From Planctomycetaceae bacterium (GTDB taxonomy: Bacteria; Planctomycetota; Phycisphaerae; UBA1845; UTPLA1), in assembly GCA_006969385.1 (NCBI GenBank), contig CP030884.1:124001-188000 (forward strand): a stretch of DNA of 64,000 nt. Direction: 5' to 3'. The number at the start of each line of letters is the position of its first letter. Positions within the stretch are counted from its first letter, which is position 1. The notes beneath the pieces were generated by a model. That model worked only from the letters and a program-made list of their open reading frames with translations, made no database searches and had not been told where the DNA came from. Both the position numbers and the translations under genes were made by a program. Below are positions 10,545 through 38,900 of this stretch, one piece after another.

Positions 10545-11192
10545 ATGAAAACGCAAACGCCTGATATTGGTTCGTTCACGACATTGACTACAGTCAATCG
10601 CCAAGATTTTAACCTCAACAAGTTAGACGCGTGGCGCGACTGGCTTGGCGTTACGGCATCAATTGCCTGCGCCATTCATTGTGCCGCTATGCCCTTTGTC
10701 ATTGGTGCCCTGCCACTGTTGGGCTTGCAGTTCTTGGCGGATGCGACCTTCCATCGCGTCATGGTGGCAGTGTGTCTCGGCCTTGCACTTTTGGCGTTTG
10801 TTCCCGGTTGGCGACGTCATCGCAAGCTCACGCCAGCGCTGGTCGCAACAGCTGGATTAGCGCTGATTTCAGTCGCGGCATTTGTAGGTGAACACGATTG
10901 TTGCCCAACCAGCACAACGGACATCGCCGCTGCCGATGCCAAATCAACCGCTCCATTACTGAGCCCAGCGGACACCGACAATGCGTCCAGCTGCGCTGCG
11001 ACGGGTTGCACCGGATGCGCGGATGCCTCCCAAGACTCTGTGAGCGCAAATCAAAATCACGCCACCGCAATGGCCGCCGTTTGGCCATGGGTGACGCCGA
11101 TGGGTGGTGTCTTACTCATTGTTGCGCATCTGCGCAATCGTTATTGGAGTTGCCGTTGTGGCTGCGCCGCTGCGTGCCAGCAAACACGGTAA
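10545..11192 (+). CDS. MerC-domain membrane protein
   Basis: 215 residues. The core WLGVTASIACAIHCAAMPFVIG (residues 29-50) carries the Cys and His typical of the first MerC helix, followed by two hydrophobic helices near 55-85 and 95-115. A loop of about 60 residues with several Cys follows (HDCCPTS and SCAATGCTGCAD). The protein ends with the GGVLLIVAHLRNRYWSCRC segment seen in MerC proteins. MerC was described as a mercury-transport protein; homologues outside mer operons often lie near Zur-type genes. The extended Cys-rich loop is longer than in classical MerC. The next gene begins 38 bases downstream. Confidence 0.85.
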   Translation: MKTQTPDIGSFTTLTTVNRQDFNLNKLDAWRDWLGVTASIACAIHCAAMPFVIGALPLLGLQFLADATFHRVMVAVCLGLALLAFVPGWRRHRKLTPALVATAGLALISVAAFVGEHDCCPTSTTDIAAADAKSTAPLLSPADTDNASSCAATGCTGCADASQDSVSANQNHATAMAAVWPWVTPMGGVLLIVAHLRNRYWSCRCGCAAACQQTR

Positions 11193-11230
11193 GTCGCGCG
11201 ATCAGCCACATTCAAATTGGATGTCTTGTT

Positions 11231-12499
11231 ATGAATGCGAAGTCAAAACGAATTCCGATACTCGCAATGCTATTTCTTGTGCAGGTGGAATCGCTCCACG
11301 CATACGCTCAAGACGCGGCTGATCTGGACCCTGAAAAACAAGGGCACTCACGCCTCCACAAAGCATATGACGAAGGACCGCGGCAACGGCCGCATAAGAT
11401 GGACGGCGTCGGGCAGGTGAACTTTCCGATCACCACCAGCGATCCGGAAGTTCAGGAGTGGTTCAATCAAGGCATCGCGCTGATGCATAACTACTGGCAC
11501 TATGAGGCCGAGCGCAGTTTCCGTTGGTGCCTCAAGCTCGACCCCGAATGTGCAATGGCCTACTGGGCCCTGGATCAGTGTACGGGTGATCCGCGCAACG
11601 ATCACTTTCTCGCGGAAGCAATCAAACGCAAAGGCAATGTCACCGAACGCGAACGCATGTACATTGAGGTGCTAGAGGAGGCGCACGCCTACGACCCGAT
11701 TAAGAACAGCGAGCCGGACTATAAGACCAAGCGACGACGTATACTAAAGAAACTGCAAGAGATCATTCTTAAATATCCCGACGACGTTGAGGCCAAGGCG
11801 TTTTACGTGGATCAAGCTCTGAATAGTCAATACAGCTATCCGCTCGACTTGATGATCAATGAAATTCTCGCAGTCGCGCCCGACCATCCCGGCGCACACC
11901 ATTATCGAATTCACAATTGGGACGGCGAACATCCCGAGCAGGCTTTGGACAGTTGCGAGCGCTTCGGGCGCATTGCCAATGATTCCGGGCACGCCAATCA
12001 CATGCCGGGTCACGTCTATTCAGATCTGGGCATGTGGCACGAGGCGGCGATCTGGCTCGATCGCGCCACGCGCCGCGAGCGCTTGTACTTCGCATCGCAG
12101 TGTGTACAGCCGTTTGAGAGTTGGAACTACGCGCACAACCAGACCTATTTGGCTTGGGTTCAAGAGCAGCTTGGTTTGGCGAATCGGGCCGAGGCATCGG
12201 CGCGCGAGTTGCTGCGCTCCCCAGCCGACCCTGAGAAGAACGATGTCAAAGGCTACGACACGTATAGCACCGGATTGATCGCACTTGTTCGCGCGCTGGT
12301 TCGATTCGAACGCTGGGACGACATAATCGCGAGCAAGGAAGCAATCACAAAGCCGGACACCATCGTTTCAAAAGTATTTTCCGCGTACGCGGTTGCGCTG
12401 GCACATCTGAATCAATCGAACATCGAACTCGCACGCGGCGAGATCAAAAGCTCTACGATATTGAGAAGGAAGTCAGCCAGCCTGAGCACGGCTGGCTGA
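11231..12499 (+). CDS. TPR-redoxin protein, N-terminal fragment (frame-broken)
   Basis: The ATG at 11231 is followed by a signal peptide (MNAKSKRIPILAMLFLVQ...AYAQDA). The longer upstream frame to 10898 is a shadow of merC. Residues about 60-420 are TPR-like (EVQEWFNQGIALMHNYWHYEAERSFRWCL, DHPGAHHYRIHNWDG, NHMPGHVYSDLGMWHEAA). The frame ends at 12499 after an unrelated tail. Adding one A to the AAAA run at 12446-12449 gives EIKKLYDIEKE and joins it to the fragment at 12448. The gene lies 38 bases after merC and is probably co-transcribed. The TPR portion resembles exported planctomycete proteins that carry a redoxin domain. Confidence 0.8.
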   Translation: MNAKSKRIPILAMLFLVQVESLHAYAQDAADLDPEKQGHSRLHKAYDEGPRQRPHKMDGVGQVNFPITTSDPEVQEWFNQGIALMHNYWHYEAERSFRWCLKLDPECAMAYWALDQCTGDPRNDHFLAEAIKRKGNVTERERMYIEVLEEAHAYDPIKNSEPDYKTKRRRILKKLQEIILKYPDDVEAKAFYVDQALNSQYSYPLDLMINEILAVAPDHPGAHHYRIHNWDGEHPEQALDSCERFGRIANDSGHANHMPGHVYSDLGMWHEAAIWLDRATRRERLYFASQCVQPFESWNYAHNQTYLAWVQEQLGLANRAEASARELLRSPADPEKNDVKGYDTYSTGLIALVRALVRFERWDDIIASKEAITKPDTIVSKVFSAYAVALAHLNQSNIELARGEIKSSTILRRKSASLSTAG

Positions 12500-13458
12500 A
12501 GCCTTACTTTGACTGCATGCTTCTCGATGCCCGCGCGATGTTCGCGTTTGTCGAAGGGAAAGAGCTGGACGGATTCGCGCTGCTTGCCGACGCAGCGCGA
12601 CAAGAGCACACCCTGCGTCGATCGCGAAAGGATCCACCAATTTACCCGCGCGGACTCTATGTACTGCTTGGCGAGAAACACTTGGAGCATAACAGTCCGG
12701 AGCTTGCCCGCGAATGCTTTCTCACCACCCTAGAAGTCAGCCGTAACGACGGGTTCGCCCTTTCCGGCTTGGCCCGGGCTGAAGCCGCGCTCGCAAACAA
12801 CGATGCAGCCAGCGACGCCATGTCGCGCTTACTACATGTGTGGTCGGGCGCGAACCCCGAGCTTCGATGGATGGCCGACGCGGTGGCCCTCGACCTGGAA
12901 GCATCCCCGCGCGACGACGCGCCGCGCCCACAGCGTTTGTATGAAGCGCAAGACTTGGCGGCGATTGGTCCTGACGCGTGGCAACCGTACCCGATGCCCA
13001 CCCTCGACCCACTCGATTCGACCGGCGCGATATTGAATAGCGAAGAACTCAAGGGCCGCAACCTCATCATCATCTTCTATCTCGGCGAGGAATGTCCGCA
13101 TTGCATGGAGCAACTGCAAAAGGCAACAACGCGTCACGCCGATTTCCAGGCCGTCGACACCGACATTCTAGCGATCAGTGGCGACACCGTAGAACAGATC
13201 GCTGAGACACTGAAGAAGGGCGAATTGCCGTATCGGATTCTTTCCGATCCGGATCACCGCAATGCGCGACGATTCCGCTCCTATGACGATTTCGAGGAGA
13301 TCGAACTGCACTCGACGTTCCTAATCGACCGCAAGGGCCGCGTGCATTGGTCCCGCATCGGTGGCGAGCCCTTTGACGATTTCGACTTTCTCCTCGATGA
13401 GATTAAACGAATAAACGCGACAACCACATCGGCACAAGAGGCAATTGCTACCCAGTGA
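12448..13458 (+). CDS. TPR-redoxin protein, C-terminal fragment (frame-broken)
   Basis: 337 codons in the second frame; the first ATG in this frame is at 12517. Residues from the frame switch continue the TPR region (ELARECFLTTLEVS). The last 140 residues form an AhpC/TSA-type thioredoxin fold: NLIIIFYLGEECPHCMEQL with a CPHC site near 13090, DILAISGDT, YRILSDPDH and HSTFLIDRKGRVHW. The CxxC site suggests thiol-disulfide exchange or peroxidase activity outside the cytoplasm. Combined with the N-terminal fragment, the full product would be about 740 residues. Confidence 0.8.
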   Translation, partial: KLYDIEKEVSQPEHGWLKPYFDCMLLDARAMFAFVEGKELDGFALLADAARQEHTLRRSRKDPPIYPRGLYVLLGEKHLEHNSPELARECFLTTLEVSRNDGFALSGLARAEAALANNDAASDAMSRLLHVWSGANPELRWMADAVALDLEASPRDDAPRPQRLYEAQDLAAIGPDAWQPYPMPTLDPLDSTGAILNSEELKGRNLIIIFYLGEECPHCMEQLQKATTRHADFQAVDTDILAISGDTVEQIAETLKKGELPYRILSDPDHRNARRFRSYDDFEEIELHSTFLIDRKGRVHWSRIGGEPFDDFDFLLDEIKRINATTTSAQEAIATQ

Positions 13459-13820: not shown

Positions 13821-16040
13821 ATGCTGAATTTCGCCACCCCTTTATTTCAACAACGTCGCACCATATCGGTCGGCTGCCTCGCCTTGCTGCTCGCGCTTAC
13901 CAGTGCCCATGCCGAACAAACTGCCCCGACGTTACGAGTCAACCATCGTGCCCCGATCAGCGCTACCCTACCGTCCGATGGCTACGCCTTGGTTCATTCG
14001 GAAATCATCGACGTACCCGACGCCCATTGGATTCGCCTGCAATTCAACGACGTGCGCTTTGACGGCTTCGAGCCAAACGGCCCCGGCTATCTTCGGTTGA
14101 CCAGCCTGATGGACGGCGGCGTGCAGGTTCTCGATTTCGATTCCTACCTGCAATGGCATCAACGCAGCGCTTACTTCAACGGCGACGCCGTACTGCTTGA
14201 GGCATGGTCGAATCGTGCCAATGCGGATGCGGTGGTTGACGTGCTTACTGTAAAGTCCGATCTCGACGGTCGCGGGGGCGACAGCGCGCCGCGCTCGATT
14301 TGCGGCAACGATGACAACCGCATGCTGACGGATGACGACCGCGTCGCGCGCATCGTGCTGTCGGATTTTGAGCCGACGATCGTGTGCACCGCCAGTTTGA
14401 TCAACGACGCCAATGGCTGCTTCCTTACCAGCGGTGGCTGTGCCGCCAGCATGGATAACGATACCGTCATCGAATTCAACCCACCGTTGACGCTGCCGAA
14501 CGGTACCGTGCTGATGCACCCGGCCCCGGCCGATCAATACGTCCCCGACCTGAGTTCGGTCCAAAGCCAAACCGCCGGCGACGGTGAGGACTGGGGTTAC
14601 TTCGGTTGCTTTACGAATAGCACCACCGGCTTATCGCCGCGCGTATCCCAAGGCGACAGCTTCACGTTGGCAAGTCAGATCGATTTGTCCGAAGACGATG
14701 CCGTACGCGGATACGGTTGTGGAGCCACGGTTCCGCCGTTATTCCGCACGTGGAGCTTCGTCCCCAAGGAAACGGACGGCACCTTTGAAGGCTTGGTGGA
14801 TTCCGAATTGAGCGTCCGCGTCGATGCCACGGCCGGCGATTCCGGCATGGCCATTACCGACGGTGCGACCGACGAACTGATCGGCATTCTCACGAATGAC
14901 GGCTGCGATGTTTTCGTCGGCGCCAACATTGCAACGGCGGTAACCAACGAAGAATTGCGCAAAGCGTTGACGACGCCGCTCGGTATTTGCGTACCGATCA
15001 TCACCACCATTCTGGGCGGGGCGCCCGATTTGGTGAATCCCGATGGTACCACGACCGTGATGGTCGAGTTCCTCGGTGTTAACGGTACGAATCCCGTCAC
15101 CGATACGGGCGTGTTTCATTACTCAACCGGCGGACCGTACGAATCGGTTCCAATGAATGCAATCGGATTCAACTTGTACGAAGCGACGTTTCCTGCAGAC
15201 ATTTGCGGCACGTTGGTCGATTATTACTTTAGCGTGATGACCGATACCGGCGTGCGCTTCCCCGATCAGTTGCCGAACCCGGTCACCACGCTCCGCGCGG
15301 CATACGCCACCGGCACGACGACGGTGCTTGCCAATAACTTCGAAGCCCTCAACGGTTGGGATATTTCCAATACGAACGTCACGGCCGGCGCCTTCGCCAT
15401 CGGCACGCCGGGCGGCAACGGCAACGACGGCGCACCGACGGCGGACTTCGATGGTTCCGGTCGCTGCGTGTTGACCGGTCCGATGACGAACGAGGATTTG
15501 GACGGCGGCCCGACGCGTTTGCGATCGCCGTCGGTGGACCTTGGCAGTTCGACCGAGCCGTTCATTACCTTTGCCGTGTGGATGAACAACGACGATGGCG
15601 ATGACACGGTCGTGCTGCAAGCATCGACCAACGGCGGGCTCTTCTGGGACAACATTGCCATCATCGGCGACAACGGCCCGCAATGGCTGCAACAGCGGAT
15701 TCGGTTGAACGATTTCATCACGCCGAACGCCTTCACGCGTTTCCGCTTTCAGGTAAGTGACTCGCCGAATAACTCCCGCACCGAGGCCGCCATCGACGCA
15801 TTCGAATTGATCGACTACGAATGCGCTGGTGCCGTCGTTACGTGCAGCAAGGGCGACATCAATCTGGACGGTCAAGTCAACGGTGGCGACGTATCCGGCT
15901 TTGTGGGCGCACTGCTCGGCAATAACGGACTCGGCACGCCGGAATTCTGTGCTACCGATTTCGACAACGATAACGCCCTCGAAATCGGCGACGATCTCAA
16001 CGCATTTGTCGATTGCCTTGTAAGCGGCACGTGCCCGTAG
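13821..16040 (+). CDS. Exported trypsin-like protein lacking the catalytic His (pseudoprotease), with dockerin-like C-terminus
   Basis: 739 residues from the ATG at 13821 (signal peptide LNFATPLFQQRRTISVGCLALLLALTSAHA). Residues about 150-380 form a trypsin-like domain that aligns with the next gene. The acid (EDWGYFG, Asp257) and the nucleophile (GDSG, Ser341) are kept, but the TAGHC site of active enzymes reads TSGGC, with Gly at 206 in place of His. Further domains: an Ig-like segment (about 400-490), a jelly-roll-like segment (about 500-670) and paired EF-hand motifs (GDINLDGQVNGGDVSGF and TDFDNDNALEIGDDLNAF) ending in SGTCP. It is probably exported and non-proteolytic, and is a tandem paralogue of the gene at 16127. 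Confidence 0.85.
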   Translation: MLNFATPLFQQRRTISVGCLALLLALTSAHAEQTAPTLRVNHRAPISATLPSDGYALVHSEIIDVPDAHWIRLQFNDVRFDGFEPNGPGYLRLTSLMDGGVQVLDFDSYLQWHQRSAYFNGDAVLLEAWSNRANADAVVDVLTVKSDLDGRGGDSAPRSICGNDDNRMLTDDDRVARIVLSDFEPTIVCTASLINDANGCFLTSGGCAASMDNDTVIEFNPPLTLPNGTVLMHPAPADQYVPDLSSVQSQTAGDGEDWGYFGCFTNSTTGLSPRVSQGDSFTLASQIDLSEDDAVRGYGCGATVPPLFRTWSFVPKETDGTFEGLVDSELSVRVDATAGDSGMAITDGATDELIGILTNDGCDVFVGANIATAVTNEELRKALTTPLGICVPIITTILGGAPDLVNPDGTTTVMVEFLGVNGTNPVTDTGVFHYSTGGPYESVPMNAIGFNLYEATFPADICGTLVDYYFSVMTDTGVRFPDQLPNPVTTLRAAYATGTTTVLANNFEALNGWDISNTNVTAGAFAIGTPGGNGNDGAPTADFDGSGRCVLTGPMTNEDLDGGPTRLRSPSVDLGSSTEPFITFAVWMNNDDGDDTVVLQASTNGGLFWDNIAIIGDNGPQWLQQRIRLNDFITPNAFTRFRFQVSDSPNNSRTEAAIDAFELIDYECAGAVVTCSKGDINLDGQVNGGDVSGFVGALLGNNGLGTPEFCATDFDNDNALEIGDDLNAFVDCLVSGTCP

Positions 16041-16087
16041 TTAGCGCGCGGCGATATCGCCTATAATACTCGCAACTGGTTTACAAT

Positions 16088-16112
16088 CGGGCTGGGCGCT
16101 GCGCCCGGCCCG
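16088..16112 (+). terminator. Hairpin between the protease paralogues
   Basis: CGGGCTGGGCG and CGCCCGGCCCG pair around a CTG loop with one wobble, followed by only three T. It may terminate the upstream gene. A TATAAT at 16062-16067 just before it might be the promoter of the next gene, in which case the hairpin would sit in the leader. Confidence 0.5.
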
Positions 16113-16126
16113 TTTCATTCGTTCTG

Positions 16127-18322
16127 ATGGGCATCATGCAATTCCGGAGCATGCGCGTGAAACATCAAATATTCCTTTGCACCATTCTCTTAACCGCAGT
16201 CACACTGCGGGCGGAAACGATTACGGCTCCGCTGCAACAAACGACGGTAAACACGCCATTCGACAGCGGCTGGCTGTCGAACGCGACGGACGAAGCACAG
16301 GTGCTCGTCGATCATGTGGTGGAGGTGGATCGCGCGCGTTGGTTGCGACTATCGTTTTCGGAGTTAAAGCTGGGCGCGGTTCCGCACTCGGATGTCACGG
16401 CATACTTGCGGCTTACTTCCGAACTCGATGGCGCGCAGCAAATCCTCACGCCTGCGGGTGCGCGGCAGTGGCACATGACATCCGCGTACTTCAACGGCGA
16501 TGCGGTTCGCGTCGAGCTGATCGCGCCGCCGAATTGCGGTCCGTCGCGTGTTGCGTTGGAAACGTCAACGGCTTCGGCTCAACTGCTTAGCGGTTTGCGC
16601 AACCTTTGCGATAATACCGACGATAGGATACTTGCCACCGATGCACGCGTCGCGCGCTTGCTGCCGGTGGGCTGCACGGGCTGGCTCATCGACGACGCCA
16701 ATACCTGCATGCTGACGGCCGGCCACTGTACGTCTTCCAACGATTTGGATGTGGTGCAGTTCAACGTTCCGCCGTCGGAACCGAGCGGCTCACTCAACCA
16801 CCCGCCGCCGTCGGATCAGTACGTCATGGACCCCGACTCGCTTCAAATCAACGTCGGGCCGATCGAACTCGGTAATGACTGGGCGTATTACGGCGTGTTC
16901 CCCAATTCGACGACTGGGTTGTTTCCCTACGAAGCGCAAAACGATCGCTTTCGGTTACAACTGCCGCAACCCGCCAACGGTGAGATTCTGCGGAAAACTG
17001 GTTGCGGCACGACCGGCGGGCAGGTGCCCGGCACGCACAATCAAGCCACCAAGACCACGACCGGCGCTTACGTCAGTTTGATCGGTACGATTCTGCGGTT
17101 CGAGTTGGATAGCTCCGGCGGCGATTCGGGTTCGCCGGTCTTTTACGACGGAACGGACATCGCGTTTTGCATTCACACCAATGGCGGATGCGCTTCGACT
17201 GGTACGAACTCCGCGTGCGGTTTGAACAATGTTGACCTGCAAAACGCGCTGGCTAACCCCACGGGGATTTGCGTACCCAACTATTACGAGTTGACGTTTA
17301 TCGACGAGCGTCCCGTGACCGTCACGCCCGCCGGTGGCATGCGCGTGCAGGTTGCCGCCAACGGTCGCAACGGCCACGTGCTTGCATCCGAAGGCGCGCT
17401 GCTGCACTACGACTGGGGCAATGGGTATCAAACCACACCACTCGAAGCGCTGGGCGCGGGCAACTGGGATATCGTTTTTCCGCCGCTGCCGTGCGACACG
17501 TTGGTATCGTATTACGTCAGCTTCGCCACGACCGAAGGGTTTCGATCGAGTACGCCGCTCGCCGGGCCGTCGGCGGCCTTTGAAGCGATCGTTGCCGACG
17601 AGTTAACGACGATCGCCGCCTACGACGGTGAATCGGATGCGGGTTGGTTTATCACCAACTCCAACGTCGCCGACGGCGGCTGGGAACGCGGCATTCCCGT
17701 TGGCACCGGCACCTTTAACGAGCCTGCTACCGATTACGACGGCTCCGGTTCGTGCTGGCTTACCGGCAATAGCGCTCCGATTCAGGATTTGGACGGCGGC
17801 CCGACGCAATTGCAAACGCCGTTTCTGAACCTGTCCGGCATGGAAAACCCCGTGGTTACGTTTGCCGCATGGATGTTCTGTTCCGTACCGGAAAGCGATG
17901 CGTTGGTCATAGAAATCACCAACAACAGCCCCAACAATTTCGTCCCAGTGGCAACGCTGACCGGCACCGACGGTTGGGAAGAAATGACCTTTTATGTAAA
18001 GGACTACATTCCGGTGCCGGGCATCGTGCGTGTGCGATTTACCGTTTCGGACAACCCCAACGATTCTCGTACGGAAGCCGGGATCGACGCAGTGGCCTTT
18101 TATGACGCCGCTTGCACGAATGCTTGCGTACCGGGCGATACGGATGGCAACTTCCTGCGCGACGGTCGCGATCTGGCCGGCTTTGCGGCGGCACTCGTGT
18201 CGCCGCCCGCTATCGACTCGCCGGAATTTTGCGCCGCCGACATGGATGCGAACGGCACGCTAACCGTTGCAAATGACTTGCCGTTGTTGGTCGATTGCTT
18301 GGTTGCAGGGATCTGTCCGTAG
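16127..18322 (+). CDS. Exported trypsin-like serine protease with dockerin-like C-terminus
   Basis: 731 residues if started at 16127; ATGs at 16136 and 16151 are alternatives, the last giving the most compact signal peptide (MRVKHQIFLCTILLTAVTLRA). The trypsin-like domain has a complete triad: TAGHC (His200), NDWAYYG (Asp251) and SGGDSGSPV (Ser334). Downstream come an Ig-like segment (about 385-470), a jelly-roll-like segment (about 475-660) and the EF-hand pair (GDTDGNFLRDGRDLAGF and ADMDANGTLTVANDLPLL) ending in AGICP. Domain order matches the preceding gene throughout, so the two arose by tandem duplication. It is expected to act outside the cytoplasm on proteins. Confidence 0.88.
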   Translation: MGIMQFRSMRVKHQIFLCTILLTAVTLRAETITAPLQQTTVNTPFDSGWLSNATDEAQVLVDHVVEVDRARWLRLSFSELKLGAVPHSDVTAYLRLTSELDGAQQILTPAGARQWHMTSAYFNGDAVRVELIAPPNCGPSRVALETSTASAQLLSGLRNLCDNTDDRILATDARVARLLPVGCTGWLIDDANTCMLTAGHCTSSNDLDVVQFNVPPSEPSGSLNHPPPSDQYVMDPDSLQINVGPIELGNDWAYYGVFPNSTTGLFPYEAQNDRFRLQLPQPANGEILRKTGCGTTGGQVPGTHNQATKTTTGAYVSLIGTILRFELDSSGGDSGSPVFYDGTDIAFCIHTNGGCASTGTNSACGLNNVDLQNALANPTGICVPNYYELTFIDERPVTVTPAGGMRVQVAANGRNGHVLASEGALLHYDWGNGYQTTPLEALGAGNWDIVFPPLPCDTLVSYYVSFATTEGFRSSTPLAGPSAAFEAIVADELTTIAAYDGESDAGWFITNSNVADGGWERGIPVGTGTFNEPATDYDGSGSCWLTGNSAPIQDLDGGPTQLQTPFLNLSGMENPVVTFAAWMFCSVPESDALVIEITNNSPNNFVPVATLTGTDGWEEMTFYVKDYIPVPGIVRVRFTVSDNPNDSRTEAGIDAVAFYDAACTNACVPGDTDGNFLRDGRDLAGFAAALVSPPAIDSPEFCAADMDANGTLTVANDLPLLVDCLVAGICP

Positions 18323-35900: not shown

Positions 35901-38900
35901 CTCGGGTGATTGGCGTTTCGCGACAATCGAACTGCGCCCCTTCTCGGAAGACTGCAATAGCAACGGCACGCTCGATGACTGCGAGCCGGGCTTTGTCGAT
36001 TGCAATTTGAACGGCAGCTACGATATCTGCGAACTCATCGACAACGACTGCAACGCCAACGGCGTTCCCGATGATTGCGATGCGGCGGTGTTGGACTGTA
36101 ACAACGACGGTGTCCCGGATGATTGCCAACTGGCCGCCAACGACTGCAACGAAGACGGTATTCCGGATGAATGCAACCTTGTCGACAGCGACTGCAACAA
36201 CAACGGGCTCGTCGATCAATGTGAATTCGAGCCGCAGATCGATCAATCGCACCTTCGATACGATTCCGGCGGCAACTTCCAACTAGGGAACAACGCCGGG
36301 CAGACCTTTACGCCGACTTTTGAGCTATTGGAAGCCATCGAAGTTCCTTTTCTTGATAATACCGCCCCCGGAAACAGCGAGGTGGTCACGTTGCGTCTGC
36401 TGCGCGGCACTGACGTACTCGCCACCGTCGCTAAGATCGTTACCGCACCGGTCGAGCCGCTCACGCGCTTCACGTTTGACGAACCCATCGAGGTAACGCC
36501 GGGCGAACTCCTCGAATTCCAACTCAACGACACGGGCTTTATTAACTTCTTCTGGTATCAGGGACTGATCGGCTCAACGTACGACGGTGGTCAAGGCACG
36601 TTCTTCGGCGGCCCTTATAACTCGGATCGCTCGTTCCAATCGCTAGGGCGACCGCAGATTTTTGAAGACTGTAACATGAACGAAGTGCCGGACGATTGCG
36701 AAATCGTTGCCGGTGATTGCAACAACAACGGCATATTAGACGACTGTGAAAGTTTGCCCGATTGCGATGGCGACGGCATACCGGATGAGTGCGAAATCGC
36801 CGCCGGCGACTGTAACGGTGACAACATTCCCGACGATTGCCAACTCATCACCGACGATTGCAACAGCAACGGCATATTAGATGAATGCGAAATCGCCGGC
36901 GGCATCTTCAATTACGGTGCCGCACCGAACATCGCGATTCCGGACAACAACCCCACCGGCATCACATCGGTGATTAATGTGCCTTTCCCCGGCAACATTA
37001 ACGATGTGAATGTCAACTTACACATCAACCACACTTGGCAAGGTGATATCATCGCCACGCTGGAACACAACGGCACCGCCGTCACGCTCATCAACAACAG
37101 CGGCGGTGTCAGCGTGAATTGCGCACCGACTGCCTTTGGTTACAGCGCGAATAACTTTGGTACTGCCGGCAATCCGCTGGTACTCGATGATTCCGCAACC
37201 GTCAGCATCGATTGTTACGATGGTCCGACGACCAACATCGGGATCGGCAATTACGCCGGTCCGGCAATGCCGAATCAACCGCTGGCGGCCTTCAACGGCA
37301 TGAACGCCGGCGGCGAATGGACGCTGACCGTGTCGGACCCGTTGGTGCAGGAACTTGGCACACTGATCTCCTGGTCACTCGATATCAACATCGAACCAGT
37401 CGCCGACTGTAACGGCAATACGATCCCCGATGATTGCGAGTTGAACGACGTTACGTTCTACGCCCTTAGCGATGCGACCGATCAGATTCTGTTCTTGGAC
37501 GAGTTCGGTAACACCGTACGACCGGCGATCGACTTGCCTAGCGCGAACTATCGCGCGGTGGGTTATCACGCCGTCGCGCAAGTCATGCTCTACTCCAATT
37601 TGTCCACCAATGAAATTGTGCGGGTCAACCTCGATGGCTCCGACGCGTCGACCATCATCAGTGGTTCCCCGCAGGGACAAGCGCTGGATTTTGAATTCCC
37701 ATCGACGGGCACCGACTTTTATTACTGTACGGGCAATAGTGGTAGCCTTTACCGCGCGACGCTGAGCGGTACGACCACGACGCTTATTGAGAATGTCCCG
37801 CTTATTAATAACATCTCCGGCCTTGCACTCGATGAAGCGAGCAACTCGATATACTTCACCGATCAAGCTACTGGACGGATTTGGCGTAGAAACCTCATCA
37901 CCTCCGCCAACGTCCAAATCGCCAGCGGCTTACCCGGCCCACTCGAAATCGAACTTGATCGCATCGGCGGTAAGCTCTACTTCACCGAATTTTCGGGTCG
38001 CAGCGTGCGCCGCATGAACCTCGATGGCAGCGGTCTCGAGACGATCTACGACAGCAGCGGCTTCGCCGGCGGATTGGAACTCGACATCGCCAACGGCAAG
38101 GTTTACTTCACCGACATCAACACCGATCAACTATTGCGCTGCGATTTCGATGGTTCCAATCTGCAAGAAATCGCGTCGGTCGCCGACGTTTACCGAATGG
38201 ATGCGTCGATCATCAACACCGATTGCAACGGCAATGGCGTGCCCGATGGCTGCGATATTCCGTCGAGTGGGGATTGCTGTGTGACTGACAACACGCCCGG
38301 TTGTAACGTGCAGTCGATTCAGGATTGCGTCTGTGCCTTCGATTCGTTCTGTTGCAACGTTGAATGGGATCAGTTGTGCGTCAACCAAGTCGAATCACTT
38401 GGATGCGGCAGTTGCTCGACCGCAACGTTCAGCAACGATTGCAATGCCAACCTTATCCCCGATGAATGCGAAACCGAGAACGACTGCAACGGCAACTTCA
38501 TTCCCGATGAGTGCGAGAACCCGCTGCAAGGCTGCGGACCCGGCGAAGAATGCCCCGATGCCATTGCCATCGACGCCGGTACATTCGCCGGGGACCTAGG
38601 TGATAACTTCGGCACGACCGGCGATGACGATACCTGTGGGAACGGCGGTAACGGTAACAACATCGACGAGTGGTATCGCATCAGCGTGCCGTTCGACACG
38701 GTCGTCACCATCACCACGTGCAACGGTGGCACCCAATTCGACAGCGTGCTATCGGTCTTCGACGGTTGCCCGATCGACGGTGGTGTGCAGATCGCGTGTA
38801 ATGACGACACGTTCTACGCTCCGCCCGAGTGCCGCCTCGGCGGCGGAAACCTAAACCGCAAGTCAACCATCAGCGTCAACGCGTTTGCGGGTGAAGAGAT

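Follow-up and report, generated by a model that had tools for sequence, protein, structure and literature searches.

Two adjacent genes, A and B, in the window (the whole 64,000-nucleotide stretch of DNA that was analysed) code for proteins with one common architecture, and the question raised by this locus is whether gene A, in which glycine occupies the place of the catalytic histidine, is a protease in decay, a base error or a pseudoprotease that is maintained for another function. The sequence-only reading of this DNA had favoured maintenance over decay, and re-reading of the two genes reproduced its coordinates exactly, together with the change of His to Gly at residue 206 and the pairing of TSGGC in A with TAGHC/Asp251/GDSG in B (Asp251 being counted in 731-aa numbering). 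The features of the locus are:

13821..16040, + strand: gene A, predicted secreted V8-like pseudoprotease (TSGGC / D257 / GDSG), 739 aa, ATG 13821 to stop 16040
13821..13913, + strand: putative signal peptide of gene A, ending in ...LALLLALTSAHA before EQ, judged by eye
13914..14285, + strand: N-terminal beta-rich domain of gene A, family-wide and the fastest-evolving part of A (AF2; dN/dS 0.16-0.24)
14286..14996, + strand: V8/S1-fold protease-like domain of gene A, residues ~156-392 (Foldseek TMt 0.76-0.78 to 1qy6/1wcz; dN/dS 0.037)
14436..14438, + strand: Gly206 codon GGC at the catalytic His57 position of gene A (alignment, codon comparison)
14589..14591, + strand: Asp257 of gene A, Asp102 position, kept (alignment)
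14826..14828, + strand: Ala336 of gene A at S1-pocket position 190, where most family members have Thr (family alignment)
14841..14843, + strand: Ser341 of gene A, Ser195 position, kept (alignment)
14889..14891, + strand: Leu357 of gene A at S1-pocket position 213, His in 133/168 family members (family alignment)
14997..16037, + strand: C-terminus of gene A, with an Ig-like domain, a jelly roll of MAM/reelin type and a dockerin-like repeat of weak score
16088..16112, + strand: GC-rich hairpin between A and B, then TTTCATTCGT, a possible terminator; stem kept and loop changed in G001
16127..18322, + strand: gene B, V8-like protease in which the triad (TAGHC / D251 / GDSG) is intact and Ser190 and His213 are present

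The two proteins align end to end with 37% identity (E=9e-132), which bears out the earlier observation that they share all domains in order, and both N-termini look by eye like signal peptides; the open reading frame of B (731 aa from the first ATG) has its likely signal-peptide start at ATG 16151. The AF2 model of A has a pLDDT of 86.7 overall, with most of the protease region exceeding 90, and Foldseek ranked the V8 protease 1qy6 first for the models of both A (TMt 0.76; 0.78 for 1wcz) and B (TMt 0.71), so that both are predicted to have a chymotrypsin fold most like that of V8/Esp. A profile of the family matched V8, Esp and other glutamyl endopeptidases with E values of 2e-6 to 5e-6. Neither A nor B matched a Pfam model above cut-off, an NCBIfam search with A, B and the family returned no match, and Pfam Trypsin_2 gave a weak or moderate match in 33 of 40 family members. 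Compared with V8, Esp and the Bacillus glutamyl endopeptidases, the family described here adds the N-terminal domain and the Ig/MAM-like/dockerin-like C-terminus; B keeps the triad together with Ser190 and His213, whereas A lacks His57 and the pocket residues at 190 and 213. By sequence and predicted fold, B would be classed as V8/glutamyl-endopeptidase-like, with a putative specificity for Glu. The family is present in 52/114 genomes of the order, 87/397 sampled in the class and 37/294 sampled in the phylum. The C-terminal module (window 14997-16037 in A, and 17280-18319) recurs in many other proteins of the window genome and its relatives, many of them secreted, and most matches to a full-length A query fell on this module and not on the protease.

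Gene A retains the cysteine pair and the motifs T203-S-G-G206-C207, Asp257 and G339-D-S341-G. In three genomes sampled from the genus, namely that of the window (G000), G001 and G002, we found an orthologue of A that is 92% identical and located beside B in G001, and another that is about 50% identical and truncated at a contig end in G002. According to the sequence-only reading, histidine at this position in the orthologues would have pointed to a recent loss or a base error, but Gly206 is present in 3/3, a set that consists of three sequences of one genus, one of them cut off at a contig end. TSGGC is absent from the other full-length relatives (0/165), 163 of which have His at this position. 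Among the 168 full-length family members sampled across the phylum Planctomycetota, the triad is His-Asp-Ser in 161, the three Gly-Asp-Ser rows are all A orthologues, and the remaining four read Pro-Asn-Ala, Ser-Asp-Ile, His-Asp-Thr and His-Glu-Ser. Gene B has the His-Asp-Ser triad of V8-like peptidases, while A, with Gly206, is a derived homologue in which the loss of an essential residue is conserved.

The change in A extends beyond the triad. Positions otherwise about 80-100% conserved differ in the A clade (A204S, H206G, S224T, T336A/G and H357L, among others) when compared with 86 close relatives chosen for an intact triad and His213, His357 itself thus being a criterion of their selection. 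Residues 190 and 213 make up the S1 site of glutamyl endopeptidases, and replacement of His213 by Thr in BIGEP lowered kcat more than 600-fold (PMC5508998). By sequence alignment to V8, and not by measured geometry, these positions correspond to residues 336 and 357 of A, where Ala (Gly in the G002 orthologue) and Leu are found, whereas B has the expected Ser190 and His213. His213 is also missing in 32/165 other relatives, nearly all with an intact triad, so that a protein lacking only this residue need not be inactive. Gly206 combined with the loss of pocket residues 190 and 213 indicates that A lost its general base and its specificity pocket, and not a single letter.

These losses have been followed by constraint. 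Between G000 and G001, dN/dS is 0.089 for the whole of gene A and 0.072 for the whole of gene B; in the protease domain it is 0.037 for A and 0.044 for B. The frames of the A orthologues are open, with no internal stops. The A clade forms a single branch with 100/100 support and a long stem, whereas the branches that follow the divergence from G002 have similar lengths in A and B; rapid change that later gave way to constraint would fit an altered function. Holding A and B as sisters gave p 0.64 in the AU test with a 48-sequence quick tree and p 0.053 with a 30-sequence careful tree. A local sister duplication is therefore favoured in the first and nearly rejected in the second.

The block formed by A, B and the downstream region is syntenic between G000 and G001 from 13614 on, while the genomes differ upstream. 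The sharp break at window 13614 lies about 80 bases before the TATAAT of gene A, and no counterpart of the AhpC/TSA-type gene upstream of A was seen on the G001 contig. In the window, two consecutive open reading frames of 533 and 313 aa occupy 10898-13458 with 17 bases between them; an AhpC/TSA domain lies in the second, and the two may be a single gene interrupted by a stop or frameshift. As for the promoter mentioned in the sequence-only reading, no sigma-70 two-hexamer match was found, but the TATAAT that precedes each gene is kept in the sister species. The intergenic hairpin is conserved in G001, which suggests that A and B may be transcribed separately, although the number of hairpins in the scan is within chance. 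While A and B are adjacent in G000 and G001, they lie on different contigs in G002, where A is at a contig end with a gene for a long repeat-rich secreted-type protein upstream, and B stands behind a minus-strand RHS-like gene. In these assemblies, adjacency therefore does not appear to be a fixed feature, and the separate contigs and unrelated neighbours speak against a tandem pair conserved as a unit as a general claim.

The conservation of Gly206, the very low dN/dS and the fold predicted to be intact make it very probable that gene A codes for a non-catalytic pseudoprotease kept by selection, as had been proposed, whose function is probably something other than proteolysis. On the residues it carries, we regard A as a real, conserved, presumably inactive member of the V8/glutamyl-endopeptidase-like family of Planctomycetota. 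The catalytic His was replaced by Gly on the stem branch of this genus, along with the loss of S1 residues 190 and 213. The Asp, the Ser and the Cys pair remained, as did the predicted fold and the open frame, and purifying selection now acts on the protease domain of A as strongly as on the active B. Deprived of its general base and of a working P1 pocket, A would be unable to cut by the normal mechanism, and we infer that the conserved domain acts as an extracellular non-catalytic binding module, which the Ig/MAM-like/dockerin-like C-terminus may display or anchor. Between G000 and G002, the cleft motifs of A are 60% identical vs 54% elsewhere in the domain (p=0.55), compared with 70% vs 52% (p=0.016) in B. 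The binding surface of A is thus probably not the old catalytic cleft but elsewhere, and a substrate-trap cleft, which we also considered, is unsupported by the same comparison.

Recent loss of function, decay or base error would be another account of gene A, as just one of three triad residues is changed and a neighbouring paralogue could make A redundant. We consider it extremely improbable, however. Orthologues about 50% diverged have Gly206 in common, the change from His to Gly (CAY to GGC) needs at least two base changes, TSGGC is seen in three independent assemblies, and the surrounding codons differ synonymously between species (AGC GGT GGC vs AGT GGC GGC). A base error or recent loss is put out of consideration by the occurrence of TSGGC in two more species and by the need for two base changes, and decay by the domain dN/dS in frames free of internal stops. 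There is also a small chance that A is still a serine hydrolase, but one of another type (substrate-assisted, an esterase, or with a base supplied from elsewhere), using Ser341, Asp257 and the oxyanion turn. The Asp, the Ser and the glycines around the Ser are kept in 3/3 A orthologues, the retained Ser195, Asp102 and oxyanion Gly would be compatible with residual or substrate-assisted activity, and pseudoenzymes with relocated catalytic residues are known (PMC10211241). Against this, the A-clade diverged positions include no conserved replacement His, S1 residues 190 and 213 are gone, and the Ser loop is 7/15 identical between G000 and G002 in A vs 11/15 in B.

A more specific possibility, which we hold tentatively and whose likelihood overlaps with that of the non-catalytic pseudoprotease in general, being a special case of it, is that A serves B as a regulatory partner, decoy or scaffold; by extracellular binding to B or its substrates, it would increase, decrease or direct B proteolysis. 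The two genes are adjacent with their full architecture in common in G000 and G001, B is present in all three genomes having A, and in G000 and G002 it is the only other family member found; MamO with MamE (PMC4794232) and CspC and CspA next to active CspB (PMC12880746) offer precedents. However, co-occurrence in three genomes may reflect mere shared ancestry, adjacency does not hold in G002 as assembled, a hairpin separates the two genes, their sister relation is not clearly recovered by the AU tests, and the cleft motifs of A are not specially conserved. The fullest version of this idea, in which a V8-type secreted pseudoprotease evolved along the stem of a single Phycisphaerae genus and serves B outside the cell as a regulator or as a partner that binds substrate, an arrangement similar to MamO/MamE yet independent, in a family with at least three apparent triad losses, seems to us rather doubtful.

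MamO is the well-studied example of an inactive bacterial protease of the S1 fold. Like gene A, it is a chymotrypsin-fold pseudoprotease kept with an active paralogue after catalysis was lost, and it activates MamE without catalysis of its own (PMC4794232). However, MamO is HtrA-like, has Thr for the Ser nucleophile with the His kept, carries a TauE domain and binds metal, whereas A is predicted to be secreted, is V8-like and lost the His instead. CspC and CspA of Clostridioides difficile resemble A in being pseudoproteases coded beside an active homologue, CspB, in one pathway (PMC12880746, PMC6636752), but they are subtilisin-like spore proteins of unrelated lineage. In the portion available to us, a survey of 91 prokaryote genomes reports 2 inactive homologues with a trypsin-like set of about 247 proteins, which are of the same kind as A but are sequence calls without orthologue or selection evidence (PMC2605481). 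Given these 2 inactive homologues, bacterial proteases of the S1 fold that are inactive yet show evidence of long-term selection seem to be rare. Our literature searches on V8 His184 and on planctomycete pseudoproteases found nothing relevant. In the maintained pseudoprotease described here, the base and the specificity pocket are lost, the nucleophile and the Asp are kept, and an active relative lies alongside; since A is also predicted to be secreted, ideas of a partner, decoy or scaffold are directly testable with two soluble proteins.

This large unnamed protease family of Planctomycetota appears to have yielded dead members several times. A second and independent one was observed in genome G069 (L053 1501-2553 / L212 2884-5067, minus strand), with TASPC, NNW and GTAG replacing all three triad residues in an open 727-aa frame that keeps the S1 His. 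A third degenerate member (L203, G503:C13:3200-4800, minus strand) has Ser-Asp-Ile at the triad positions (TSRSV, GSIGSP), and the members L139 (G403:C28) and L142 (G397:C7) show, between them, Thr instead of the Ser nucleophile (GDTGSP) and Glu instead of the Asp; genome G403 has five family members. Elsewhere in the window, tandem repeats of 45-48 bases at 36094-36206 and 38434-38521 would encode DCN..GIPDEC-type repeats.
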